NCBI RefSeq assembly: GCF_030682845.1
Contig: NZ_JAUXNK010000045.1
Location: forward strand, 1-64,000
Length of the DNA stretch: 64,000 nucleotides
Reading direction: 5' to 3'
Source of the DNA: Methanolobus sp.
GTDB lineage: Archaea; Halobacteriota; Methanosarcinia; Methanosarcinales; Methanosarcinaceae
The position numbers were made by a program, and so were the translations under genes. Below, piece after piece: positions 7,780 to 62,597 of this stretch. The notes under the pieces are model-generated. The model was not told where the DNA came from and did no database searches. It worked only from the letters and a program-made list of their open reading frames with translations. Positions within the stretch are counted from its first letter, which is position 1. Every line of letters starts with the position of its first letter.

Positions 7780-8622
7780 ATGAATGTTAGAGACATTATG
7801 AGTTCACCGGTATTCACAATAGCACCGGAAGAGAACGTGGCACATGCAAGGAACCTAATGCTGAAACATAAGATAAGCACCCTTGTGGTGGCCAAGGACG
7901 GGAAGATGGTCGGTATAGTCACAAAGACCGACCTGAGCAGAAAGCTTGCACAGGCAGAACCGATGTGGCGCAGAAGACCGATAGACAAAATCCCGGTCAA
8001 CATGGTGATGAATGATGCCCCTATATCGATCTATCCGGATGCCTCGATTTCCCAGGCAAGCAACCTGATGCTGGAGAATGGTATCAACTCACTTGTTGTT
8101 GTGAAGGATAATATAGTTGGAATAGTCACGGGAACAGACATCATGAAATATGTATCCCAACAACCGGATATTAAAATGCGGGTATCGGACGTAATGGGAG
8201 ATGACATTATCTTTGTGCACAGGCACCACACGATAAACCATGTTGTCCAGGAGATGGAAAAATACGAGGTCAACAGGGTGATAGTCACCGATGATTCCAA
8301 CGAGGCCGTCGGGATAATCACCACAAGCAACGTGGCACTGAACATCATGGTGGATAATGAGGGTAATATGCAGTCAAAGAGCATAAAGATGGCACGCAGA
8401 TCTACTCCCGCCGGCCAGAAGACATACAGGTACATCAAAGACGTCCCGCTCGTGGCCGAAGACATTATGATGGACCTGCCATCCGGCGTAGCTGTCGACG
8501 ACCTGTTGGTCGATGCTGCAAAGGTCATGCTGGATGAGCATGTTATCAGCCTTCCTGTTGTTAATAAGGATGAGATCGTGAGCATGATAGGCAGGAAAGA
8601 TATACTCCGGGCCGCTCAATAA
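7780..8622 (+). CDS. Four-CBS-domain protein
   Basis: Four CBS motifs in 280 residues make two Bateman modules: MSSPVFTIAPEENVAHA near 5, MNDAPISIYPDASI near 75, VMGDDIIFVHRHHT near 135 and MMDLPSGVAVDDLL near 225. A basic linker (KMARRSTPAGQKTYRY) separates the third and fourth motifs. There is no fused catalytic domain, so it is presumably a stand-alone nucleotide- or ligand-sensing regulator. The ATG at 7780 is preceded by GATGGAGG, a good ribosome-binding site. It is followed after 70 bp by another four-CBS protein, which suggests a duplicated pair. Confidence 0.88.
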   Translation: MNVRDIMSSPVFTIAPEENVAHARNLMLKHKISTLVVAKDGKMVGIVTKTDLSRKLAQAEPMWRRRPIDKIPVNMVMNDAPISIYPDASISQASNLMLENGINSLVVVKDNIVGIVTGTDIMKYVSQQPDIKMRVSDVMGDDIIFVHRHHTINHVVQEMEKYEVNRVIVTDDSNEAVGIITTSNVALNIMVDNEGNMQSKSIKMARRSTPAGQKTYRYIKDVPLVAEDIMMDLPSGVAVDDLLVDAAKVMLDEHVISLPVVNKDEIVSMIGRKDILRAAQ

Positions 8623-8692: not shown

Positions 8693-9469
8693 ATGGAAGT
8701 AAAGGACATCATGACAGAACCTGTAAATATAGATAAGTCAGCTACCATCTCTCATGCACTTGACATCATGGAAAAGAAGGGAACAAGGCGCCTCCTTGTC
8801 ACGCATGATCACAAGATCATGGGCGTGCTCACCATGAGAAACCTTACAAAAGAGCTCGGGACCCGCAAGAAGGGAAGTATGCCGGCATCTGCCCTGCATG
8901 TTGCAACAGCTGTCTCTGACAATTACGTAAAAGTGCTCCCGGATACCAAGGTAACAGATGCCGTCACCCTCATGGCCCGCAACGGCGGGGTGATGATCGT
9001 AGTTGAGAACGAAAAGGTCCTTGGCTGGGTGACTCCGACAGAACTTCTCAGGAACAACGACCTGAAGGGATATGTGGCTGAAGTGATGCAAAAGAACCCT
9101 ATTGTCGCACACCCCGCTGACCGTGTGAGCCATGTAAGACGCCTCATGCTGGACAATAATATCGGAAGGGTGCCTGTGATAGATGACGACAAGCTGGTAG
9201 GGATAGTCACAGAGAAGGACATTGCCAAAGCAATGCGTTCGTTCCGTGACATTGTCGATGGCAATAAGCAGGATGCACGTATCAAGAACCTCATTGTCGA
9301 GGATATAATGAAAATGGGTGTCAAGACCGTCTATACCAATACACCCGTAAAGGACGTCGCAAAACTCATGCTTGATGAGAATATAGGCGGTGTGCCGGTC
9401 GTAAACCTTGAAGAACAGATGGTAGGGCTTGTTACAAGGAGAAATATCGTCAATGGGCTTGCGCAGTAA
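8693..9469 (+). CDS. Four-CBS-domain protein
   Basis: The 258-residue protein consists almost entirely of four CBS motifs: [16 protein letters not shown] near 6, [14 protein letters not shown] near 80, [14 protein letters not shown] near 138 and [17 protein letters not shown] near 210. Glycine-rich GVLT/GIVTEKD/GLVTRRN strands close the individual repeats. It resembles the preceding gene in layout but is a distinct sequence. Like it, it has no catalytic domain and probably senses adenylates. The ATG at 8693 is preceded by AGAGGGAAAAATT. The RNA ligase begins 21 bp downstream, so cotranscription with it is likely. Confidence 0.88.
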
Positions 9470-9490: not shown

Positions 9491-10648
9491 ATGGATAATG
9501 GGACTGAAATGGATATAAAAGAGGCGGCAGAGCTTTTGGGCCTGTCGCCATCCAGATTTTCAGAACTTCTCGAAAAGAAGGTGTTACTGCAGGACTGGGG
9601 AGAATATGAGGATTTCTTCCGATTCAGCAGCAATGTGGGGAAAATCGATGAGGGCAGTGTACTGGTCAAAAAAGGAGATGCCTTTGAGTTCGTACAGGGG
9701 TTCCCGAAGATAAAAAGGGCCATTATGCTTGCTCCTGCCATCAAGAGTCATTTTGCGGATATCGATGCTGTTGCTGTTGAAGAGAAGATGAATGGCTACA
9801 ATGTCCGTGTCATCGAACATAAAGGGGAACTGATTGCTTTTACTCGCAGCGGCCACGTCTGCCCATACTCCAGCGAGCGTGCCAACCACCTGCTTGAACA
9901 TGATCTTTTTAAGGATCATCCTGAATACGTGATCTACGGTGAGATGGTGGGACCTGATAACCCCTATGTGCCAAAGCATATTTATGAAGTTGATTCGCTC
10001 GAGTTCTTTGCTTTTGACATCCGGTCCAAAGAGGGGATTCCCCTGCCTGTTCATGAGAGACGGGAGCTTGCTGCTGATTATGGTTTGACCCAGGTCGAAC
10101 TTCTTGGCGAGTTCGAAGTATCTGAAGCTGCTGAAGGGATACGGGATATAATTCTGGAACTGGGTAAAAAGGAACGTGAAGGCGTAATAATCAAAGATCC
10201 TGCAATGGTATTGCAACCATTGAAATACACAACCTCCGAAACTAATTGTGCGGATCTGCGCCACGGGTTCAGGTTCTATAACGAATCGGGTAAGGATTAC
10301 CTCTTTGCAAGAGTTGTGAGAGAAGGTTTCCAATCAGTGGAATGGAACGAGAGCGAGGAAGATCTTGAGAAAAGATGCCTCATGCTCGGTAAAAGCATAC
10401 TCATGCCCATGAGAGAATCGATTATGCATGTGCAGGAAGGCGAACGCCTATGGGAGGATGTACAGATAAGGGTGAGAGAAGTGAGCACTATCGACAAATT
10501 CAGGATGTATCTTGAAAGGCTTGGTCTTGATATCATCTTCGGCTCACCAGAGCTCATCGGGGATGAATATGTTGTCAAGATCAGGAAGATGAACAAGAGC
10601 ACAACAGACAAGACCCTCGGTATAATCGAAGGCCAGCTCTGGTCGTGA
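9491..10648 (+). CDS. ATP-dependent RNA ligase, archaeal Rnl3 type
   Basis: The 385-residue protein carries the nucleotidyltransferase motifs of covalent ligases. Motif I is EEKMNGYNVRV near residues 98-108 with the adenylylated lysine, motif III is LEFFAFDIRS near 173, motif IV is EGVIIKDP near 230 and motif V is LKYTTS near 243. A C-terminal alpha-helical domain of about 130 residues follows, as in the homodimeric archaeal Rnl3 ligases that join or circularise RNA. A leading helix-turn-like segment (IKEAAELLGLSPSRFSELL) precedes the catalytic core. With RtcA and KptA a few kilobases upstream, the area is rich in RNA-end enzymes. ATG 9509 is an alternative start. Confidence 0.88.
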   Translation: MDNGTEMDIKEAAELLGLSPSRFSELLEKKVLLQDWGEYEDFFRFSSNVGKIDEGSVLVKKGDAFEFVQGFPKIKRAIMLAPAIKSHFADIDAVAVEEKMNGYNVRVIEHKGELIAFTRSGHVCPYSSERANHLLEHDLFKDHPEYVIYGEMVGPDNPYVPKHIYEVDSLEFFAFDIRSKEGIPLPVHERRELAADYGLTQVELLGEFEVSEAAEGIRDIILELGKKEREGVIIKDPAMVLQPLKYTTSETNCADLRHGFRFYNESGKDYLFARVVREGFQSVEWNESEEDLEKRCLMLGKSILMPMRESIMHVQEGERLWEDVQIRVREVSTIDKFRMYLERLGLDIIFGSPELIGDEYVVKIRKMNKSTTDKTLGIIEGQLWS

Positions 10649-10703
10649 AAAAGAAATATATGCATAAACATTTATTCGTAAGACCATACTGGAGGATACT
10701 CAC

Positions 10704-11741
10704 ATGACTAAAATTGCCATCATTGGAAGTGAAAAGAGCGGGAAGACCACTCTTGCCGGGAAACTGGGCAAAAAGGGCAGTGTTACTGACATCACGATGT
10801 ACGACTATGCCAAGAATGACCGGGTGCTCACGACCATTGATGCTACCGGGTATCCGGCATCTGTGAAATCCCTCCTGACAGCACTTAACCTTTCAGACAT
10901 AGCCATACTGTGCATACCTCCACAGGGGCTCGACCCTCTTGCGGCCGAATGTATCATTTCCCTTGACCTTTTAGGGTATAAGCATGGTATCGTTGTCCAG
11001 ACCAAAGCAGACCTCTCATATCCGCTGGCTCTTGAGGAAATGAAAGAGAAACTCAAAAAGATTACAAAAGGAACAGCGCTTGAGAACTGGCAGTACCATA
11101 CCATTTCCACAACTAGCTTTGAGGGCATGGAAGAGCTCAAGGAACTCATCTTCTCCATGGGAGACATGGTGGGCGCCGAGCAAAGGAGCCTGGACAGCCT
11201 TCCTGCACGGGTTGTCATCGACCAGTCCTTCAACGTAACCGGAATCGGATGTGTGGTACTGGGAGTCGTGTCACAGGGAACCATACATGCCAAGGATAAG
11301 ATGGTGGCCTATCCGGCCAAAAAGGACCTGGAGATCCGCTCCATCCAGATGCATGATGTGGACGTTAAAACAGCTCCGGCTGGTGCAAGGGTCGGCCTTG
11401 CGCTCAAGAATGTACAGTCAAAGGATATAGACAGAGGATTTGTTCTGTCCGCTCAGGAAAATGTCTCAGAGGACCTCAATATTGAATGCACCCTGTCTCA
11501 ACTGGCAAAGGATTTCGCAGTAGGAGACATGCTTCACGTCTACGTTGGTCTGCAATCGGCACCGCTAAAAGTTAAGAGCATAAAACAGGAAGGGCAAAGT
11601 GTGGAAAAAGCAAAGCCCGGGAAAAAGTACCTGTTGGAACTGGCAGGGACAAAGGAAATAGCCTATAGCAAAAATGACAGGTTCGTCCTGGCAAACCTCG
11701 ATGGCAAGCAGAGATTCGTTGCCTTCGGATATAGCCAGTGA
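10704..11741 (+). CDS. Archaeal SelB-like translational GTPase family protein (aSelBL), divergent G domain
   Basis: The protein has an EF-Tu-like layout: a small G domain (about 1-165) and two beta-barrel domains (about 170-345). The P-loop GSEKSGKTT is at residues 8-16. The switch II motif, DCPGH in EF-Tu, reads DATGY at 46-50, so the catalytic His position holds Tyr. The NKxD position is TKAD (100-103). The domain of true SelB that reads the selenocysteine element is absent. This fits the aSelBL family, known from published work to be widespread in archaea, often with a disrupted GTPase, and once proposed as a pyrrolysyl-tRNA elongation factor. That role is unproven. ATG 10704 is preceded by GGAGGATACTCAC, a strong ribosome-binding site. 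Confidence 0.78.
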   Translation: MTKIAIIGSEKSGKTTLAGKLGKKGSVTDITMYDYAKNDRVLTTIDATGYPASVKSLLTALNLSDIAILCIPPQGLDPLAAECIISLDLLGYKHGIVVQTKADLSYPLALEEMKEKLKKITKGTALENWQYHTISTTSFEGMEELKELIFSMGDMVGAEQRSLDSLPARVVIDQSFNVTGIGCVVLGVVSQGTIHAKDKMVAYPAKKDLEIRSIQMHDVDVKTAPAGARVGLALKNVQSKDIDRGFVLSAQENVSEDLNIECTLSQLAKDFAVGDMLHVYVGLQSAPLKVKSIKQEGQSVEKAKPGKKYLLELAGTKEIAYSKNDRFVLANLDGKQRFVAFGYSQ

Positions 11742-11742
11742 A

Positions 11743-12258
11743 CTACTTTTTGGGCAGAAGGTGTTTGGAGCCTTCCAGCACGGAAGGCATTTCAACCGCT
11801 TTTGTGAGCTTCACGTTTTCAGGCAGGTCCACCATAGTGGGCTGTTGTATGGCAGCAGGGGACGCCTCTATAGTAGCTCTCTGAACCTTGTAGCCAGAGT
11901 CACTGCGTGAGAAGGATGCAGGTGCAGTTGTAGATGGGCGCTCCGTCGAGAAGACCACGGATGTATCTTCGGTTGTGCTGTCTGAACCGGAGCCCCTTAA
12001 TCCGGATTTTGTGTCTCTTTCTTTTGCCTTTGATCCTTCTTCTTTTCCACGCAGATAGTTCTCACGTGCAAAATCCCGGAGATCATATTCATCGGCAAAT
12101 CCGTAAAGCCTGGAGAGCTGCTCCTGGACCCAGCCTATCTCCGAGTGCCTGTGATAACCAACTTCAAATCCAAGTTTCCGGGAAACCTCAGCAAGATGAG
12201 CCCTGTCGGCCTCGGATATTACCTTACTCTCCTTTTCCTTTTTGAATAGTGCGACCAT
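11743..12258 (-). CDS. Conserved hypothetical protein with low-complexity C-terminal half
   Basis: I do not recognise this 171-residue protein. Residues 1-75 are charged and helical (ISEADRAHLAEVSRKLG, then LSRLYGFADEYDLRDFAR). Residues 80-140 are rich in Ser, Thr, Gly and Lys and look disordered, and the end (VDLPENVKLTKAVEMPS) is again more ordered. There is no signal peptide or membrane segment. It begins 10 bp after the KaiC-like ATPase gene on the same strand, so it is probably in the same operon and may be a partner of that ATPase. It converges on the SelB-like gene with one base between stop codons. Confidence 0.72.
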   Translation of the reverse strand: MVALFKKEKESKVISEADRAHLAEVSRKLGFEVGYHRHSEIGWVQEQLSRLYGFADEYDLRDFARENYLRGKEEGSKAKERDTKSGLRGSGSDSTTEDTSVVFSTERPSTTAPASFSRSDSGYKVQRATIEASPAAIQQPTMVDLPENVKLTKAVEMPSVLEGSKHLLPKK

Positions 12259-12268
12259 AGGACAACCA

Positions 12269-13012
12269 TCATTCCAGATAACCTTCGATCTTCAGGCCTT
12301 TTTCCGTAAAACTGACAGAGCGCATGTTGCAATCATGCCTTGTGCCACGCATTTTGATTACCTGGATGGCACGTGTCATTGTCTTGTCATACAGGAAATT
12401 GTGCATGAAAATGACACCATGTGCTGCAAACTGCTCTGTGGAATACGCAGTCGGGTCTGTCATCTCAGACAACAGTACGGTAGTACAGCCAAGCTTCTTG
12501 AGGTTGCGTATGAACCTGCTCATCTCCTTTTCCTGAAGGGAGAAATCGTTTGTAGTGAACCTTATGGCCGATACTGAATCTATGACAAGGCGCTTGACGT
12601 CATATTCTGAAACGTATGCAGCTATTTCCTTAAAGACCATGGAAGGAGACGGCGCCTCACTCTCAATGGATGCCCTGCCTACGTTATAGTCCGTTGTCAC
12701 AAACTCGTTCATCTCATCCATATACCCGTACTCCATCCTCGGACCCAGATCTGCAAAGAGAAGTTTCTGCATTTTGATAAGAGGAGCAATGTTTATCGTA
12801 TAATTGGACATGTCATTGATGATGTTCTGCGGGCATTCAAGCAGTGTCGCGTATAACCCAACCTCACCCTTGGAAGCGCCATGTGCAAGGAACTGTACGC
12901 CAAAGGTGGTTTTCCCGCTGCCTGGCGGACCGCTCAGTACATAGACCCTTTCGGACAAGAAACCGCCCTGTACCAGATCATCAAATCCTTCTATTCCTGT
13001 AGGTATTCTCAT
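12269..13012 (-). CDS. KaiC-like RecA-superfamily ATPase
   Basis: The 247-residue protein is a single KaiC/RecA domain. It starts with RIPTGIEGFDDLVQGGF and has the Walker A motif SGPPGSGKTTFG near residues 28-39 and the Walker B-like strand VKRLVIDSVSAIRF near 135-148. Such single-domain archaeal KaiC homologues bind ATP and act in signalling or regulation; the partner is unknown. The start chosen is ATG 13012, because GAGGTAG stands a few bases upstream and the family begins there. An upstream in-frame ATG at 13072 lacks a ribosome-binding site. The downstream unknown gene follows after 10 bp. The spoIIM-like gene is divergent. Confidence 0.82.
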   Translation of the reverse strand: MRIPTGIEGFDDLVQGGFLSERVYVLSGPPGSGKTTFGVQFLAHGASKGEVGLYATLLECPQNIINDMSNYTINIAPLIKMQKLLFADLGPRMEYGYMDEMNEFVTTDYNVGRASIESEAPSPSMVFKEIAAYVSEYDVKRLVIDSVSAIRFTTNDFSLQEKEMSRFIRNLKKLGCTTVLLSEMTDPTAYSTEQFAAHGVIFMHNFLYDKTMTRAIQVIKMRGTRHDCNMRSVSFTEKGLKIEGYLE

Positions 13013-13121
13013 AGATACTACCTCTGTATATAAGTAGGATAATATACTTTTATGAGTATTATAAAACTGCAATATATTTTAATGCATCGATTGGATATTA
13101 TAAAAACAACATTAAATAAAT

Positions 13122-56577: not shown

Positions 56578-58206
56578 TTACTCTTTTTCCTTTATCTTCA
56601 GCAGGGAATGGTTGATGGCCTGCTCGGGGCAGATGGTCACGCAGCGCCTGCAGCTTGTACCAAGACAGTTCTGGCTGTCGATGTCTAGAAACCTTCCTTC
56701 CTTCTTCTCGATAATGACCAGAGCATCCTCAGGGCACTCCTCTTCGCACTGGTGGCAGAGAACGCACTTTTCCACTGGAGCTTCCAGTATTATTCCGATG
56801 TCCTTTACAATTTCAAGGCCAAGGTATCCCACATCGTCGATATCTTTTCTGACCCTTTTCTCGATCTCTACAACCTTGCGGTCCTCAGGGAACGGTGGAA
56901 TACCATACATCTGCAGCATCTGGGCATACATCTCGGCAGGCATTCCCTGTTGCCATGTGGAGAGTTCACACATGTATATCTCTTTGAATGTCTCACTGGT
57001 AGCCATCATCACATGGTCGGCCTGTATCCTTTTTGCGACCTCTGTGACCTCATCGAGCTTAGAGCGGTCGATAGCTATCTTCCGCGCAAGTCCTATAGAA
57101 GTATTCCCGAACTGGACTATTTTTTTGGAAAATCCCGGAACTGAGCCTATATGCCTTGCTTTTTCCGCATCCACATAGGTGCCAGTTGCGCCGGACATGT
57201 AAGAGTACATTAGGTCCTCGTATTTCAAGCCCGCTTCGACCATGAGTGTCATATGTGCTGCCCTTATGGCTCCTATCGCCTTTCCAACTTCCTCCACATC
57301 CCTGTCCGTGATGGAGATCCCGTCGCTAAGCGTTATCTTTCCATTGGGAAGCTTGGGAAGTTTTCTGATAAGCCCTTCCTTGAGCGCAAGCGCAATAGTG
57401 GAAATTACCCCGGTACCTGTGATGCCTTTTGGCACAGCTTCCGAATTCTCGATGGTATTCCCTGTGAGAGGGTCCACAAGAGGTCCTTTTACCGGGTTCA
57501 GGGCCGCGTCAAGCACCGTGAGTCTCCAGTAACCGTTTTCCTCGTTGACGTCGCTTATTGCTCCCGGCCCCGCAAGCATACCGCAGTCTATACCCTGTCC
57601 TTCTATGGCAGGGCCTGCTGCTGCGCTTGCTGTCATTATCCTGTCGCCTATCTTCAGGGCCATTTCTGCATTTGTACCATAGTCCGTAACTAGACATGGT
57701 TCTTTCTGGTTTATAAAGTCAGTCTCCATCATCATTGCCAGGGCATCGGCACCTATCTCGTGCTTTATGGCAGGCGGGATAATTATCTCACAGTTGTCCA
57801 TCTCAAAGATACCTTTAAATATATCATTTGCAGGAAAAACCCTCGCGTCCCTTTTGACATCCTGGACCCCTAATGCTGCCTGCTTATTCTTTCCTGCGTA
57901 TGCAAGATCCCTGATCTCTATATTCTGGAACAGGGAAAGCTGTATAGGGTTCCCGCATACTGCTATGCGGAGAATCTTTTCAGGTTCCACGTCAAACTTC
58001 TCCAATATCTTCTTCACGGTTTCCACCATGAGCCGGTGTGCAACTTCAGTTCCCGTCGAAATGGCAAAATCCAGATGGTCCATCACATTACCTCCAGGGA
58101 GCGGATGCCCCATGGTAATCACCGTCTTGATGGTCTCCTGCTTCTCAAGGTCTATCAGTTGCGACCTGAAACCGCTTGTTCCAAGGTCCAGGGATATCAC
58201 ATACAT
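56578..58206 (-). CDS. ramA: RamA, ATP-dependent reductive activase of methylamine corrinoid proteins
   Basis: RamA reduces inactive Co(II) corrinoid proteins to Co(I) with ATP. The 542-residue protein starts YVISLDLGTSGFRSQLIDLE, an ASKHA-type actin/Hsp70 nucleotide-binding fold; DYGTNAEMAL and SAAAGPAIEGQGIDCG continue the domain. The C terminus has two [4Fe-4S] motifs: C481, C484, C487 and C491, then C514, C519, C522 and C526, matching the ferredoxin-like domain of RamA. It follows pylD by 20 bp on the same strand. The start ATG 58206 has GGAGAG upstream. It links the pyl operon to methylamine growth. Confidence 0.92.
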   Translation of the reverse strand: MYVISLDLGTSGFRSQLIDLEKQETIKTVITMGHPLPGGNVMDHLDFAISTGTEVAHRLMVETVKKILEKFDVEPEKILRIAVCGNPIQLSLFQNIEIRDLAYAGKNKQAALGVQDVKRDARVFPANDIFKGIFEMDNCEIIIPPAIKHEIGADALAMMMETDFINQKEPCLVTDYGTNAEMALKIGDRIMTASAAAGPAIEGQGIDCGMLAGPGAISDVNEENGYWRLTVLDAALNPVKGPLVDPLTGNTIENSEAVPKGITGTGVISTIALALKEGLIRKLPKLPNGKITLSDGISITDRDVEEVGKAIGAIRAAHMTLMVEAGLKYEDLMYSYMSGATGTYVDAEKARHIGSVPGFSKKIVQFGNTSIGLARKIAIDRSKLDEVTEVAKRIQADHVMMATSETFKEIYMCELSTWQQGMPAEMYAQMLQMYGIPPFPEDRKVVEIEKRVRKDIDDVGYLGLEIVKDIGIILEAPVEKCVLCHQCEEECPEDALVIIEKKEGRFLDIDSQNCLGTSCRRCVTICPEQAINHSLLKIKEKE

Positions 58207-58226: not shown

Positions 58227-59006
58227 TCAGATAACAGAATACAGCATAGATGCGACCCCAATGACCAGGGGTTCCATGACGAGGTCGACACGATATTTCT
58301 TACCTATCTCCGGAGGCAGGCCACATGGTATGCCGGGAGTCGACACCAGGCATCTTTCCTCGATCATGCCTTCAGATATAGTATTTGCATTGGGGGTGGC
58401 TTCAAGGACCATGGAGAACCTTTTCCTGTCCTCACTGCAGTAAGGCTTAATTCCCAGCTCTTTCACAGCTTTCTCCAGAAATCCCCTGTTAGGGTCACAT
58501 GCATAGACATTGAACCCTTTTTTCATAAGATGTGCAGCACCTGCATAGCCCACCCTTCCAAGGCCTATCACAAGGATATCTTTTGAGGATGCTTCCCTGA
58601 ATCTGGAAGCTATCTCAGCATATATAATTCCTGTAGCCACGTGGTTGCTGACTATCTTCCCCTTGCGCAGGTTATGTGCAACGAACATATGGTCATCTGC
58701 CATCAGTATTATGTCGGCACCCTGCGAGACTGCCTCATAATAGCCGGTCATATCAGAGTGTTCGGTAATGGCTCCCTCAAGTCCGAAGTATTGAGTAATA
58801 AATAGCAGGGAAGATGCAAAATTGCTGATGATGCCGTCGCCTGCAGTTATAGGGATAATACCGACCTTCAGAGAGCCGGGTTTTGTGCCGTACAGTTCTT
58901 CGCATATTCCCCGAACATCAAGCCCTGTAACCCTTTTTATAGTCTCATCGTTCTCTTCAAGCTGCATTGACAGGTTCTCAAGATCCCGGGGTGTCAGAAG
59001 CGCCAT
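58227..59006 (-). CDS. pylD: Pyrrolysine biosynthesis protein PylD (3-methylornithyl-N6-lysine dehydrogenase)
   Basis: PylD oxidises 3-methylornithyl-lysine to the semialdehyde, which cyclises to pyrrolysine. The 259-residue protein has a Rossmann dinucleotide site KDILVIGLGRVGYAGAAHLM near residue 140. LGIKPYCSEDRKRFSMVLEA follows. The family-typical segment GSLKVGIIPITAGDGIISNF is near 45-65. It starts 2 bp after the pylC stop and precedes ramA. Confidence 0.95.
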   Translation of the reverse strand: MALLTPRDLENLSMQLEENDETIKRVTGLDVRGICEELYGTKPGSLKVGIIPITAGDGIISNFASSLLFITQYFGLEGAITEHSDMTGYYEAVSQGADIILMADDHMFVAHNLRKGKIVSNHVATGIIYAEIASRFREASSKDILVIGLGRVGYAGAAHLMKKGFNVYACDPNRGFLEKAVKELGIKPYCSEDRKRFSMVLEATPNANTISEGMIEERCLVSTPGIPCGLPPEIGKKYRVDLVMEPLVIGVASMLYSVI

Positions 59007-59008
59007 AT

Positions 59009-60103
59009 TCAGGCCCCCTGACCGATGGCAAGATATTCTCTAAGCATATTCAGACCTCTCTGCCTGTTAAGGTCTGCTTCTTCTTTTTCAGAAGCCCAGC
59101 TTATGAGCGTGAACACTTTCCTTTCTCCGCTGCACTCAAAGATCTCAAGCCCTTCAGATGCATGGAACTCGTGGTAATCAGTTCCCTGTGACAATACATG
59201 CTCACCAACAGGGACGAGTTCTCCGTCCCTGAAGAGCAGGTGCTCATAGGTACAATAGTTTCTTTCCGGGATTCCCTCATTCTCCCGGACCCCTGTCACA
59301 AATGCCTGCAAAAGCAGTTCTATAAGGTTCACTCCGGAGGAATGGTAGACCACCGTGGGTGTCTGGCTCGGGAACCTTGCATCGATCTCAAGCACTTTCA
59401 ATCCTCGGGAGCTGTCTATCGCCTCGACATCCATAATACCCTTCAGGTTCAGGTTTTCTGCAAGCTTGTAGGTCAGATCCCTGAACTCAGGGTAATCGGC
59501 CAGGGGTGTCACCATGTGGCAATCATAGGTCCCGTCTATATGGATCTTAGTTTCCTTGACAACCTCAAAGCGCTCGCCGTCCCCTACGACTTCAAGGGAA
59601 ACAACGTCTCCTTCGACATATTCTTCGATGAGCATGGACGGATCAAGTCCTTCCAGGCCGCTCTGATCGTAGATGATGGAGGTACCAATGCTGCTGCTCT
59701 CGCATGGAGGCTTAATGAAATATGGGGGAGATGTCGGATTATCCAGAGGCATGGGTACGTTGATGGAGCGGAAGTACTCTTTCGATCTTTTCTTGTCCAT
59801 GCTGATGTGATAGGCATCGAAGTCAAAGAGCATGGGGCAGGCGAGCTTGTCCCTTAATGTCCTCAGGAAATTGATAGTTTCCAGGTTCTCGTTAACGGGA
59901 AGCACTGCCATTGCTGTTTTTGAGAGCTCGATGAGTTTCTCCGGCTCTTTTGTGACATCGAAACAATGGAACTCATCAACCACTTTCATTATCAAAGGGC
60001 GTTCCTTCTTATCTACCAGAACCACGCGCATCCCGGCTTTCTTCGTCAGGTAACTTGCCTCAAATCCCTGCAGTTTACCTCCGATCAGGACCAGGTTCTT
60101 CAT
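59009..60103 (-). CDS. pylC: Pyrrolysine biosynthesis protein PylC (3-methylornithine:L-lysine ligase)
   Basis: PylC joins 3-methylornithine to lysine with ATP. This ATP-grasp protein (364 residues) begins KNLVLIGGKLQGFEASYLTKKAG. Grasp-type segments are PTSPPYFIKPPCESSSIGTS, SMLIEEYVEGDVVSLEVVG and VLEIDARFPSQTPTVVYHSS with metal-binding Glu/Asp. The start is ATG 60103, where homology begins and which overlaps the pylB stop (ATGA). A longer frame reaching 60172 lies within pylB without support. Confidence 0.95.
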   Translation of the reverse strand: MKNLVLIGGKLQGFEASYLTKKAGMRVVLVDKKERPLIMKVVDEFHCFDVTKEPEKLIELSKTAMAVLPVNENLETINFLRTLRDKLACPMLFDFDAYHISMDKKRSKEYFRSINVPMPLDNPTSPPYFIKPPCESSSIGTSIIYDQSGLEGLDPSMLIEEYVEGDVVSLEVVGDGERFEVVKETKIHIDGTYDCHMVTPLADYPEFRDLTYKLAENLNLKGIMDVEAIDSSRGLKVLEIDARFPSQTPTVVYHSSGVNLIELLLQAFVTGVRENEGIPERNYCTYEHLLFRDGELVPVGEHVLSQGTDYHEFHASEGLEIFECSGERKVFTLISWASEKEEADLNRQRGLNMLREYLAIGQGA

Positions 60104-61158
60104 GCTACCAGCCCCACTATCCTGTTGAAATCGGCCTGGCTTGCAGGTTCCATCCCCATGGTCTTCAGGCACTCTACAACGCTTTTTGGGTCCCTGTGCC
60201 TCTCCTCGGCTCCTCTGTCATAGTTAACGACTCCTTCAAGCGCGGAATCCGAAGGTATTATTGATGTTACCACATTTGCCCCGGCATTGAGCCTGTGTAC
60301 CATTCCCGGAATGCCTTCAAGGTCAAGGGATGCAGGTATGAGCCTGTCAGGGAACATAAGTCTGAGAACGGCTATTATTTTCAGCTCTTCTATGCTTGAT
60401 ATACGGTTCACCTTTTCAAGAGGTGTGCCCTCCTGCGGTACGAATGTCATGACCCTTACCATGTCTGGAGTATTCGCCTCCATTCCTCTCAGTGACCTGA
60501 TGGTCGATTCGATATCATTACCGACGCCGGTAAGTATCCCGTCCTCAACGCAGTAACCGATGCTCTTGGCGAACTTACGGGCATTGACCCTGTCCTCAAA
60601 GGACTGTCCGACCCTCAGTTTCCGGTAGAGTTGCTGGTCATGTGTCTCCTGGTAGAGGGCAAGGAAGTTTGCGCCGTTGTCATGCAATTCCTTTAGCACT
60701 TCATTTCCCATGACTCCTGGAGATATCATAATGGGAAGGTCCAGTTCTGATCTTACTGCCCTCACGACATCAACAAAATTTTCAGGTCTGTCATGGAAGT
60801 AAGGGTCTTCTCCCATGGTCAGGTCAACCATGTGAATACTCTCACCTTTCAGTGCACGGCATATATTACGCACTTCTTCTATACTCAGACGATACCTGTT
60901 TATCTCATGATTCGCCCTGTAATAGCAGAAAGTGCACTTGTTCTTGCAGTAGGTGGAAAAATAAACGAAGCTGTAGAGGAAGACTTTGTTTCCGAAAAAG
61001 TGATCCTTGACCTTCCTTGATAAGTAAAAAAGCTTTTCAAGCTGCTCATTCTCATTTATCCGGAGCAGTTCCCGGAGTTCATCGTCAGAGAACTGTGCCC
61101 CCTCCAGTACCTTCCCTGCAAACTTGTCCAGGTCGTTTTGTGTCATGTTATTTAGCAA
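60100..61158 (-). CDS. pylB: Pyrrolysine biosynthesis protein PylB (3-methylornithine synthase)
   Basis: PylB is a radical-SAM mutase that turns lysine into 3-methylornithine. The FeS-SAM motif C71-x3-C75-x2-C78 is in YCKNKCTFCYYR; the 352-residue length is standard. The start is taken as TTG 61158, because GAGGTGAT lies just upstream with good spacing, overlapping the pylS stop. The first ATG, 61146, is 12 bases later and further from this site. The gene is 9 bp after pylS and overlaps pylC by 4 bp, so pylS-B-C-D form one operon. Confidence 0.95.
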   Translation of the reverse strand: MLNNMTQNDLDKFAGKVLEGAQFSDDELRELLRINENEQLEKLFYLSRKVKDHFFGNKVFLYSFVYFSTYCKNKCTFCYYRANHEINRYRLSIEEVRNICRALKGESIHMVDLTMGEDPYFHDRPENFVDVVRAVRSELDLPIMISPGVMGNEVLKELHDNGANFLALYQETHDQQLYRKLRVGQSFEDRVNARKFAKSIGYCVEDGILTGVGNDIESTIRSLRGMEANTPDMVRVMTFVPQEGTPLEKVNRISSIEELKIIAVLRLMFPDRLIPASLDLEGIPGMVHRLNAGANVVTSIIPSDSALEGVVNYDRGAEERHRDPKSVVECLKTMGMEPASQADFNRIVGLVA

Positions 61159-61167
61159 GTTATCACC

Positions 61168-62597
<1,430 letters not shown>

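Follow-up and report, generated by a model that had tools for sequence, protein, structure and literature searches.

The 64,000-nucleotide stretch of Methanolobus DNA analysed here (the window) carries a gene for an EF1-type GTPase in which a tyrosine occupies the place of the catalytic histidine of translational GTPases. The sequence-only reading placed this protein in the aSelBL family (also called aEF-X or 'EF-Pyl'), pointed to a pyrrolysine (pyl) system in the same window and repeated the suggestion that the family serves as an elongation factor for pyrrolysyl-tRNA. The locus thus raises the question of whether aSelBL is a Pyl-tRNA factor, or what else an EF1-type protein with such a switch II may do.

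A Methanolobus member of the aSelBL family

The gene (10704-11741, + strand) begins with ATG, preceded by a GGAGG at 10691-10695 (+) that, read by eye, resembles a ribosome-binding site. It encodes 345 amino acids comprising the EF1-family domains I-III, without domain IV of SelB. The EF-Tu GTP-binding domain and EF-Tu domain 2 of Pfam both matched above their cut-offs. The top NCBIfam family was SelB (TIGR00475), at 133.8 bits where the cut-off is 242.25, and this score, together with the lack of domain IV in the AlphaFold2 model (pLDDT 91.1), places the protein outside SelB itself. Residues 1-345 of the model superpose on residues 5-377 of the 452-residue chain of SelB 4acb, in agreement with the earlier claim that the C-terminal domain of SelB is missing. 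Likewise, the three motifs named in the sequence-only reading are present: an intact P-loop, GSEKSGKT, at residues 8-15 (10725-10748, +), which fits the GxxxxGK[ST] pattern of classical translational GTPases; DATGY instead of DCPGH in switch II at residues 46-50 (10839-10853, +), without the His of the DxPGH motif of a classical hydrolysing translational GTPase; and TKAD as the G4 base-recognition motif (NKxD in others) at residues 100-103 (11001-11012, +).

Whole-gene dN/dS was 0.05-0.07 against the seven of 13 relatives (Methanolobus and close kin) that gave a finite dS, with dS above 2 and rough in four of the seven. Such purifying selection indicates a real gene and rules out a pseudogene or random ORF. 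ORFs antisense to aSelBL were discarded, the antisense frame examined being interrupted by stops. A scan for sigma-70 promoters and terminators, with a model ill-suited to archaea, gave nothing clear above shuffled sequences.

A phmmer search matched PDB entries 3wnb, 3wnc and 3wnd end to end (E 1.3e-121, 344 residues). The AlphaFold2 model aligned with 3wnb ('Crystal structure of EF-Pyl in complex with GMPPNP') over 345 residues at 1.5 A, with Z 49.0 and 55% identity, followed by archaeal EF1A (Z 36.6) and archaeal SelB (Z 35.7). The closest solved relative is MM1309 of M. mazei (3WNB, 3WNC, 3WND), which matches over the full length, shares Tyr50 and likewise has no domain IV. It differs from the Methanolobus protein in having Arg14 for Lys14, DAHSY for DATGY, TRSD for TKAD and His179 for Gln174 in the pocket, and the Methanolobus protein is five residues shorter near residue 136. 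The aSelB of Methanococcus maripaludis (4AC9, 4ACB; Z 35.7, E 7e-20) has the three-domain fold and the Asp and Arg of the pocket in common with aSelBL; true SelB, unlike aSelBL, possesses the switch II His, a longer switch I region and a fourth domain. Two further proteins of the same genome matched aSelBL, identified by their motifs as EF1A (E 2.9e-15) and aIF2gamma (E 3.0e-10), and no SelB was among these matches.

For the phylogeny, 80 aSelBL sequences (58 earlier ones and 22 more, identical ones dropped) were aligned with 12 outgroup proteins (EF1A, aIF2gamma, a GTPBP-like protein and one SelB). Loci L032-L061, mostly from the same genomes as named loci, and a fragment (L062) were left out, and the sample is without thermoplasmatal, methanococcal, crenarchaeal and thaumarchaeal members. 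In the tree (IQ-TREE, LG+G4, 92 sequences, 345 columns), the 80 aSelBL were monophyletic (ultrafast bootstrap 99) and joined the lone SelB with a support of 100, leaving EF1A, aIF2gamma and the GTPBP-like protein outside. The window protein fell within a clade of 15 Methanolobus-type sequences (support 90), and its nearest named loci, at 73-96% identity, are from Methanolobus. The proposed family assignment is therefore upheld by the clade support and by the 55% identity to 3wnb, with aSelBL as sister to SelB in a tree that holds one SelB; membership of another GTPase family is excluded on the same grounds. The EF1A and aIF2gamma of the same genome are homologous, but carry DxPGH and an RGITI-type switch I and lie outside the aSelBL-SelB clade.

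The protein corresponds to the 'conservative' aSelBL branch of Atkinson et al. 2011 (PMC3037878), characterised in the consulted passages of that paper by a common clade beside SelB, loss of the catalytic His, no C-terminal domain and a G-domain deletion relative to SelB. Aligned with SelB_L102 and EF1A, the deletion around switch I appears as a gap between residues 22 and 23, and aSelBL does not preserve the switch I motif RGITI. The window gene is a new Methanolobus member of an already described family, with small differences from the studied ortholog. As the Methanolobus ortholog of aSelBL/aEF-X, it would belong to an EF1-type lineage whose origin lies next to that of archaeal SelB.

Conservative aSelBL was also seen in L020, L023 and L025 (Methanophagales) and in G304, G312, G373, G401 and G409, some of the genomes of a family mostly without it; the three named copies (L020, L023, L025) nest in the Methanosarcinales-type clade, as expected of horizontal transfer. 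Locus L102 (478-2586, genome G408) is a single ORF combining a PSTK-like kinase with a true SelB, with TIGR00475 above and TIGR03574 below its cut-off. PSTK-SelB-type fusions are known from an Archaeoglobi species and from Bathyarchaeota (PMC9499178).

Tyr50, the nucleotide site and the pocket

The replacement of the catalytic His by Tyr is real, yet it belongs to the family as a whole and is not peculiar to the window gene: position 50 is Tyr in 79 of the 80 aSelBL, and each of the 12 outgroup proteins has His there. Pro51 accompanies Tyr50, also in 79 of 80. The P-loop reads GK in 24 members and GR in 35 and is deleted in 21, and Tyr50-Pro51 is present in 20 of the 21 members lacking a P-loop. 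Retention of Tyr50 where the nucleotide site is gone makes it unlikely that the residue is kept for catalysis, and its role is, judging from the alignment, probably independent of GTP. According to the consulted passages of PMC4329189, where Tyr50 of MM1309 was already noted, switches I and II of MM1309 take part in domain packing, with switch II (Tyr50-Asp65) lying against domains 2 and 3. From this packing and from the P-loop-less members we infer a structural role for Tyr50, in domain packing rather than in catalysis. The argument from the P-loop-less members is our own and is absent from the consulted passages of PMC4329189 and PMC3037878.

The same passages of PMC4329189, whose authors proposed the name aEF-X, report that MM1309 binds GTP with a Kd of 0.43 uM and GDP with a Kd of 26.2 uM, has no GTPase activity in the absence of ribosomes and guards Cys-tRNA-Cys (half-life about 300 versus 80 min). 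Cys-tRNA-Cys was the only charged tRNA for which an assay was found there, so that specificity for Cys is unproven.

Within the pocket, Asp173, Phe176, Leu186 and Arg229 (codon at 11388-11390, +; Arg234 of MM1309, Arg247 of aSelB) are identical in all 80 members. The residue after the pocket Asp (His192 in aSelB, His179 in MM1309) is Gln174 in the Methanolobus protein (Asp-Gln, codons 173-174, 11220-11225, +); of the 80 members, 47 have His at this position, 31 have Gln and two have another residue. This His was described in the consulted passages of PMC3037878 as universal apart from the longest branches (Sulfolobales, M. acidiphilum). Our wider sample contradicts that description, and the abundance of Gln shows that the His is not family-defining. 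As a marker for pyrrolysine, position 174 was rejected, His and Gln each occurring in both pyl-bearing and pyl-less groups. With Gln in place of His, the amino acid held could differ from that of MM1309.

The reading that we favour, at a probability of roughly 0.55, is that aSelBL binds GTP but is no ordinary GTP-hydrolysing switch, and that it retains an aminoacyl-tRNA that is small and labile, either to shield it or to pass it on. Nucleotide binding would most likely not be coupled to hydrolysis in the usual manner, and the pocket between domains I and II would accommodate the aminoacyl-tRNA, for which Cys-tRNA-Cys, with MM1309, is the only example shown. The tRNA so held may be protected or may be handed to the translation machinery. 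By analogy, the Methanolobus protein would behave like MM1309 in GTP binding, in the lack of GTPase activity without ribosomes and in the protection of Cys-tRNA-Cys.

Besides the pocket Gln, two points count against this reading: the retention of Lys14 and the constraint on the G domain, with a dN/dS of 0.04-0.06 against the three relatives with dS below 1 (L004, L008, L015). Together they indicate that the G domain of the Methanolobus protein is not decaying, and they also fit hydrolysis of GTP on the ribosome. aSelBL could then act as an elongation factor that hydrolyses GTP and serves Cys or a different amino acid, and on the ribosome the part of His would be played by Tyr50 or some other group. 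Asp46 and Asp103, present in all 24 members with Lys14, speak for this, and an alternative translation factor is one of the two roles offered by the authors in the consulted passages of PMC4329189. However, Tyr50 is equally strict in the P-loop-less members, MM1309 showed no GTPase activity without ribosomes and the RGITI of switch I is not conserved; a hydrolysing factor is thus unlikely, though it deserves serious consideration.

Neighbouring genes

An ATP-dependent RNA ligase gene of the Pab1020 type (9491-10648, +) ends 55 bases upstream of aSelBL; its product scored 382.2 bits with TIGR01209 (cut-off 136.9) and 130.7 with Lig_C. In the consulted passages of PMC3037878, the gene upstream of aSelBL was called an ATP-dependent DNA ligase, whereas TIGR01209 identifies it here as an RNA ligase. 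By domain search, the genes at 8693-9469 (+) and 7780-8622 (+) each encode a protein with four CBS domains. Downstream of aSelBL lie genes for a 171-residue protein without a Pfam match (11743-12258, -) and a KaiC-like ATPase (12269-13072, -), and both also occur downstream, on the opposite strand, in many Methanosarcinaceae loci.

The neighbourhood comparison comprised 68 submitted loci, of which 65 were anchored (all except L105, L111 and L116) and 64 were valid, the anchor of L022 being the wrong gene because of an in-frame TAG. This single TAG (L022 2457-2459, ANME-2 cluster archaeon WYZ-LMO14) falls between domains I and II of aSelBL, and may be read as Pyl, be an assembly error or mark a broken gene. 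The same TAG, at the same contig coordinates, is found in genome G034 (78% complete), which is not among the pylS-bearing genomes.

A TIGR01209 ligase was found within five genes upstream of aSelBL in 32 of the 35 Methanosarcinaceae loci, directly upstream in 30, and in none of the 29 loci outside that family, which have aSelBL all the same. Such a constant neighbour could mean that aSelBL acts with the ligase in tRNA or RNA repair or processing and not in elongation. Confined as it is to one family, the link carries little functional weight; furthermore, gaps of 279-407 bases separate the two genes in the four L121-L125 loci in which the ligase is directly upstream. We regard a joint role in RNA repair as quite improbable.

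aSelBL and pyrrolysine

The pyl system that the sequence-only reading had located 46 kb away was confirmed, with RamA, PylD, PylC, PylB and PylS all above curated cut-offs. The genes pylD, pylC, pylB and pylS occupy 58227-62499 (-; pylS at 61168-62499), followed by ramA at 56578-58206 (-), and 46.5 kb separate aSelBL from pylD. No tRNA-Pyl was found in the window or beside its pylS; a likely one is present on another contig (G000:C63:17768-17837, a 70-base match at 87% identity).

The tabulation took in 16 Methanolobus genomes in which a single contig carries aSelBL and pylS; in every one of them the two genes are 38-81 kb apart. The distance is mostly 127-301 kb in g13, with one genome at 1.6 Mb and one not computable; elsewhere it is 212-845 kb (g7, g9, g10), 60 kb (g11), 169 kb (g5) and 1.0 Mb (g12). 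For genome G157 the value is spurious, caused by rounding of the genome size, and several other sizes are likewise rounded. General closeness of the two genes was set aside as support for a Pyl-tRNA factor, because neighbouring genera may share an ancestral arrangement.

Among the genera compared, aSelBL adjoins pyl genes directly only in genus g6 of the Methanosarcinaceae (genomes of 1.3-1.8 Mb), where it stands beside tRNA-Pyl and pyl genes directly in four of five genomes and across a contig break in the fifth. aSelBL and pylS share a strand in G086, G087 and G088 and are 3.4-5.7 kb apart; in G089 the pyl end adjoins aSelBL, which has the opposite orientation, and in G091 the gene order was pieced together over two contig ends. 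aSelBL is missing from a sixth g6 genome with pylS, G090, which is 57% complete. The interval from aSelBL to pylS contains, in this order, a conserved ORF (about 273-281 residues) and tRNA-Pyl; the L130 copy of the ORF had no NCBIfam match. The g6 loci with aSelBL near tRNA-Pyl, pylS, pylB, pylC and pylD are L130 (5372-10218), L147 (6872-13669), L148 (7265-11713), L151 (2-4125), L149 and L150. A literature search, supplementary files aside, found no report of this adjacency, and the terms 'elongation factor' and 'SelB' are absent from the main text of PMC11362671 and PMC9723798 as far as consulted. The consulted part of PMC11362671 describes gut Methanosarcinaceae with reduced genomes (1.6-2.2 Mbp), to which g6 might, at a guess, belong.

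In some Methanosarcinaceae, a translation role of aSelBL may have been drawn into pyrrolysine decoding, with the g6 protein helping to carry or guard Pyl-tRNA and the main job of the family elsewhere. In a milder form, the EF1 fold would have become a nucleotide-independent holder of aminoacyl-tRNA, in which Tyr-Pro replaced His structurally. Both forms taken together have, in our view, a slender chance, and reduction of a shared genome region accounts for the g6 adjacency at least as well.

A dedicated Pyl-tRNA factor, as the name EF-Pyl implies, would agree with the 38-81 kb distances in Methanolobus, with the g6 adjacency and with a phylum sample of 392 genomes, in which 62 of the 64 genomes with pylS have aSelBL (the exceptions being G163 and G254). 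Presence of aSelBL was scored at a best E below 1e-28, and tallies across searches were made by hand. The true SelB of G408 reached 3.5e-31 in this search, and the weak class hits in G035, G037, G210 and G212 (1.8e-30 to 1.7e-36) are thus perhaps misjudged.

By this threshold, aSelBL is present in 207 of the 237 genomes of the class, or 208 with G103, which the search left at EF1A level and which holds a 70-residue piece of aSelBL at a contig end. pylS was counted in 102, a figure that misses the cut pylS of G089, located at a contig end. Of the 135 class genomes without pylS, 111 have aSelBL. Among the 150 good genomes (completeness 90% or more, contamination 5% or less), aSelBL occurs in 80 of 81 with pylS and in 63 of 69 without. 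Conversely, once G103 is corrected for, five of the 102 pylS genomes are without aSelBL: G090 and G002 (both below 60% complete), G020 (80%), G001 (89%) and G163 (99%), the absence from G163, an assembly of 140 contigs, being perhaps just an assembly gap. G001 and G002 are the sole genomes of their family in the search. In the phylum sample, which does not include the Methanomassiliicoccales, the most telling pyl-bearing order outside the phylum, aSelBL turned up in about 130 of the 328 genomes lacking pylS. G254 (95% complete, four contigs) has two pylS (C1:1556333-1557052 and C1:13669-14388) and no aSelBL; its two matches are at EF1A level, one being EF1A and the other GTPBP-like by motif reading.

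Found in many genomes without pylS and missing from some with it, aSelBL is not coupled in its presence to the pyrrolysine system; the consulted passages of PMC3037878, which defined the family, already remarked a distribution wider than the use of Pyl and Sec. Moreover, docking in the 2015 paper (PMC4329189, as consulted) indicated that the pocket of MM1309 has too little room for Pyl, and binding of Cys-tRNA-Cys by MM1309 was shown there. Outside g6 the distance to pylS reaches 1 Mb and more, and proximity may reflect shared ancestry of the region. The suggestion that aSelBL is the elongation factor for Pyl-tRNA is therefore disfavoured and very improbable. It is not disproved, because docking was the only approach to Pyl, and no direct Pyl-tRNA binding assay was found, in the consulted passages of PMC4329189.

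A decaying paralog heading for loss, which the missing P-loop in 21 of 80 members might suggest, has next to no likelihood given the dN/dS of 0.05-0.07 among Methanolobus and close kin and the retention of aSelBL in 143 of the 150 good class genomes.

aSelBL is thus nearly universal in the class to which the Methanolobus genome belongs. New details are Lys14 and the pocket Gln in the Methanolobus protein and the position of aSelBL beside the pyl cluster in a genus with small genomes. The survey provides natural controls for the idea of a Pyl-tRNA factor, namely genomes that have pylS but no aSelBL, and one genus that has the two side by side. Furthermore, since the Methanolobus version keeps the P-loop Lys lost in MM1309, it is the better protein for asking whether Tyr50 forbids GTP hydrolysis.
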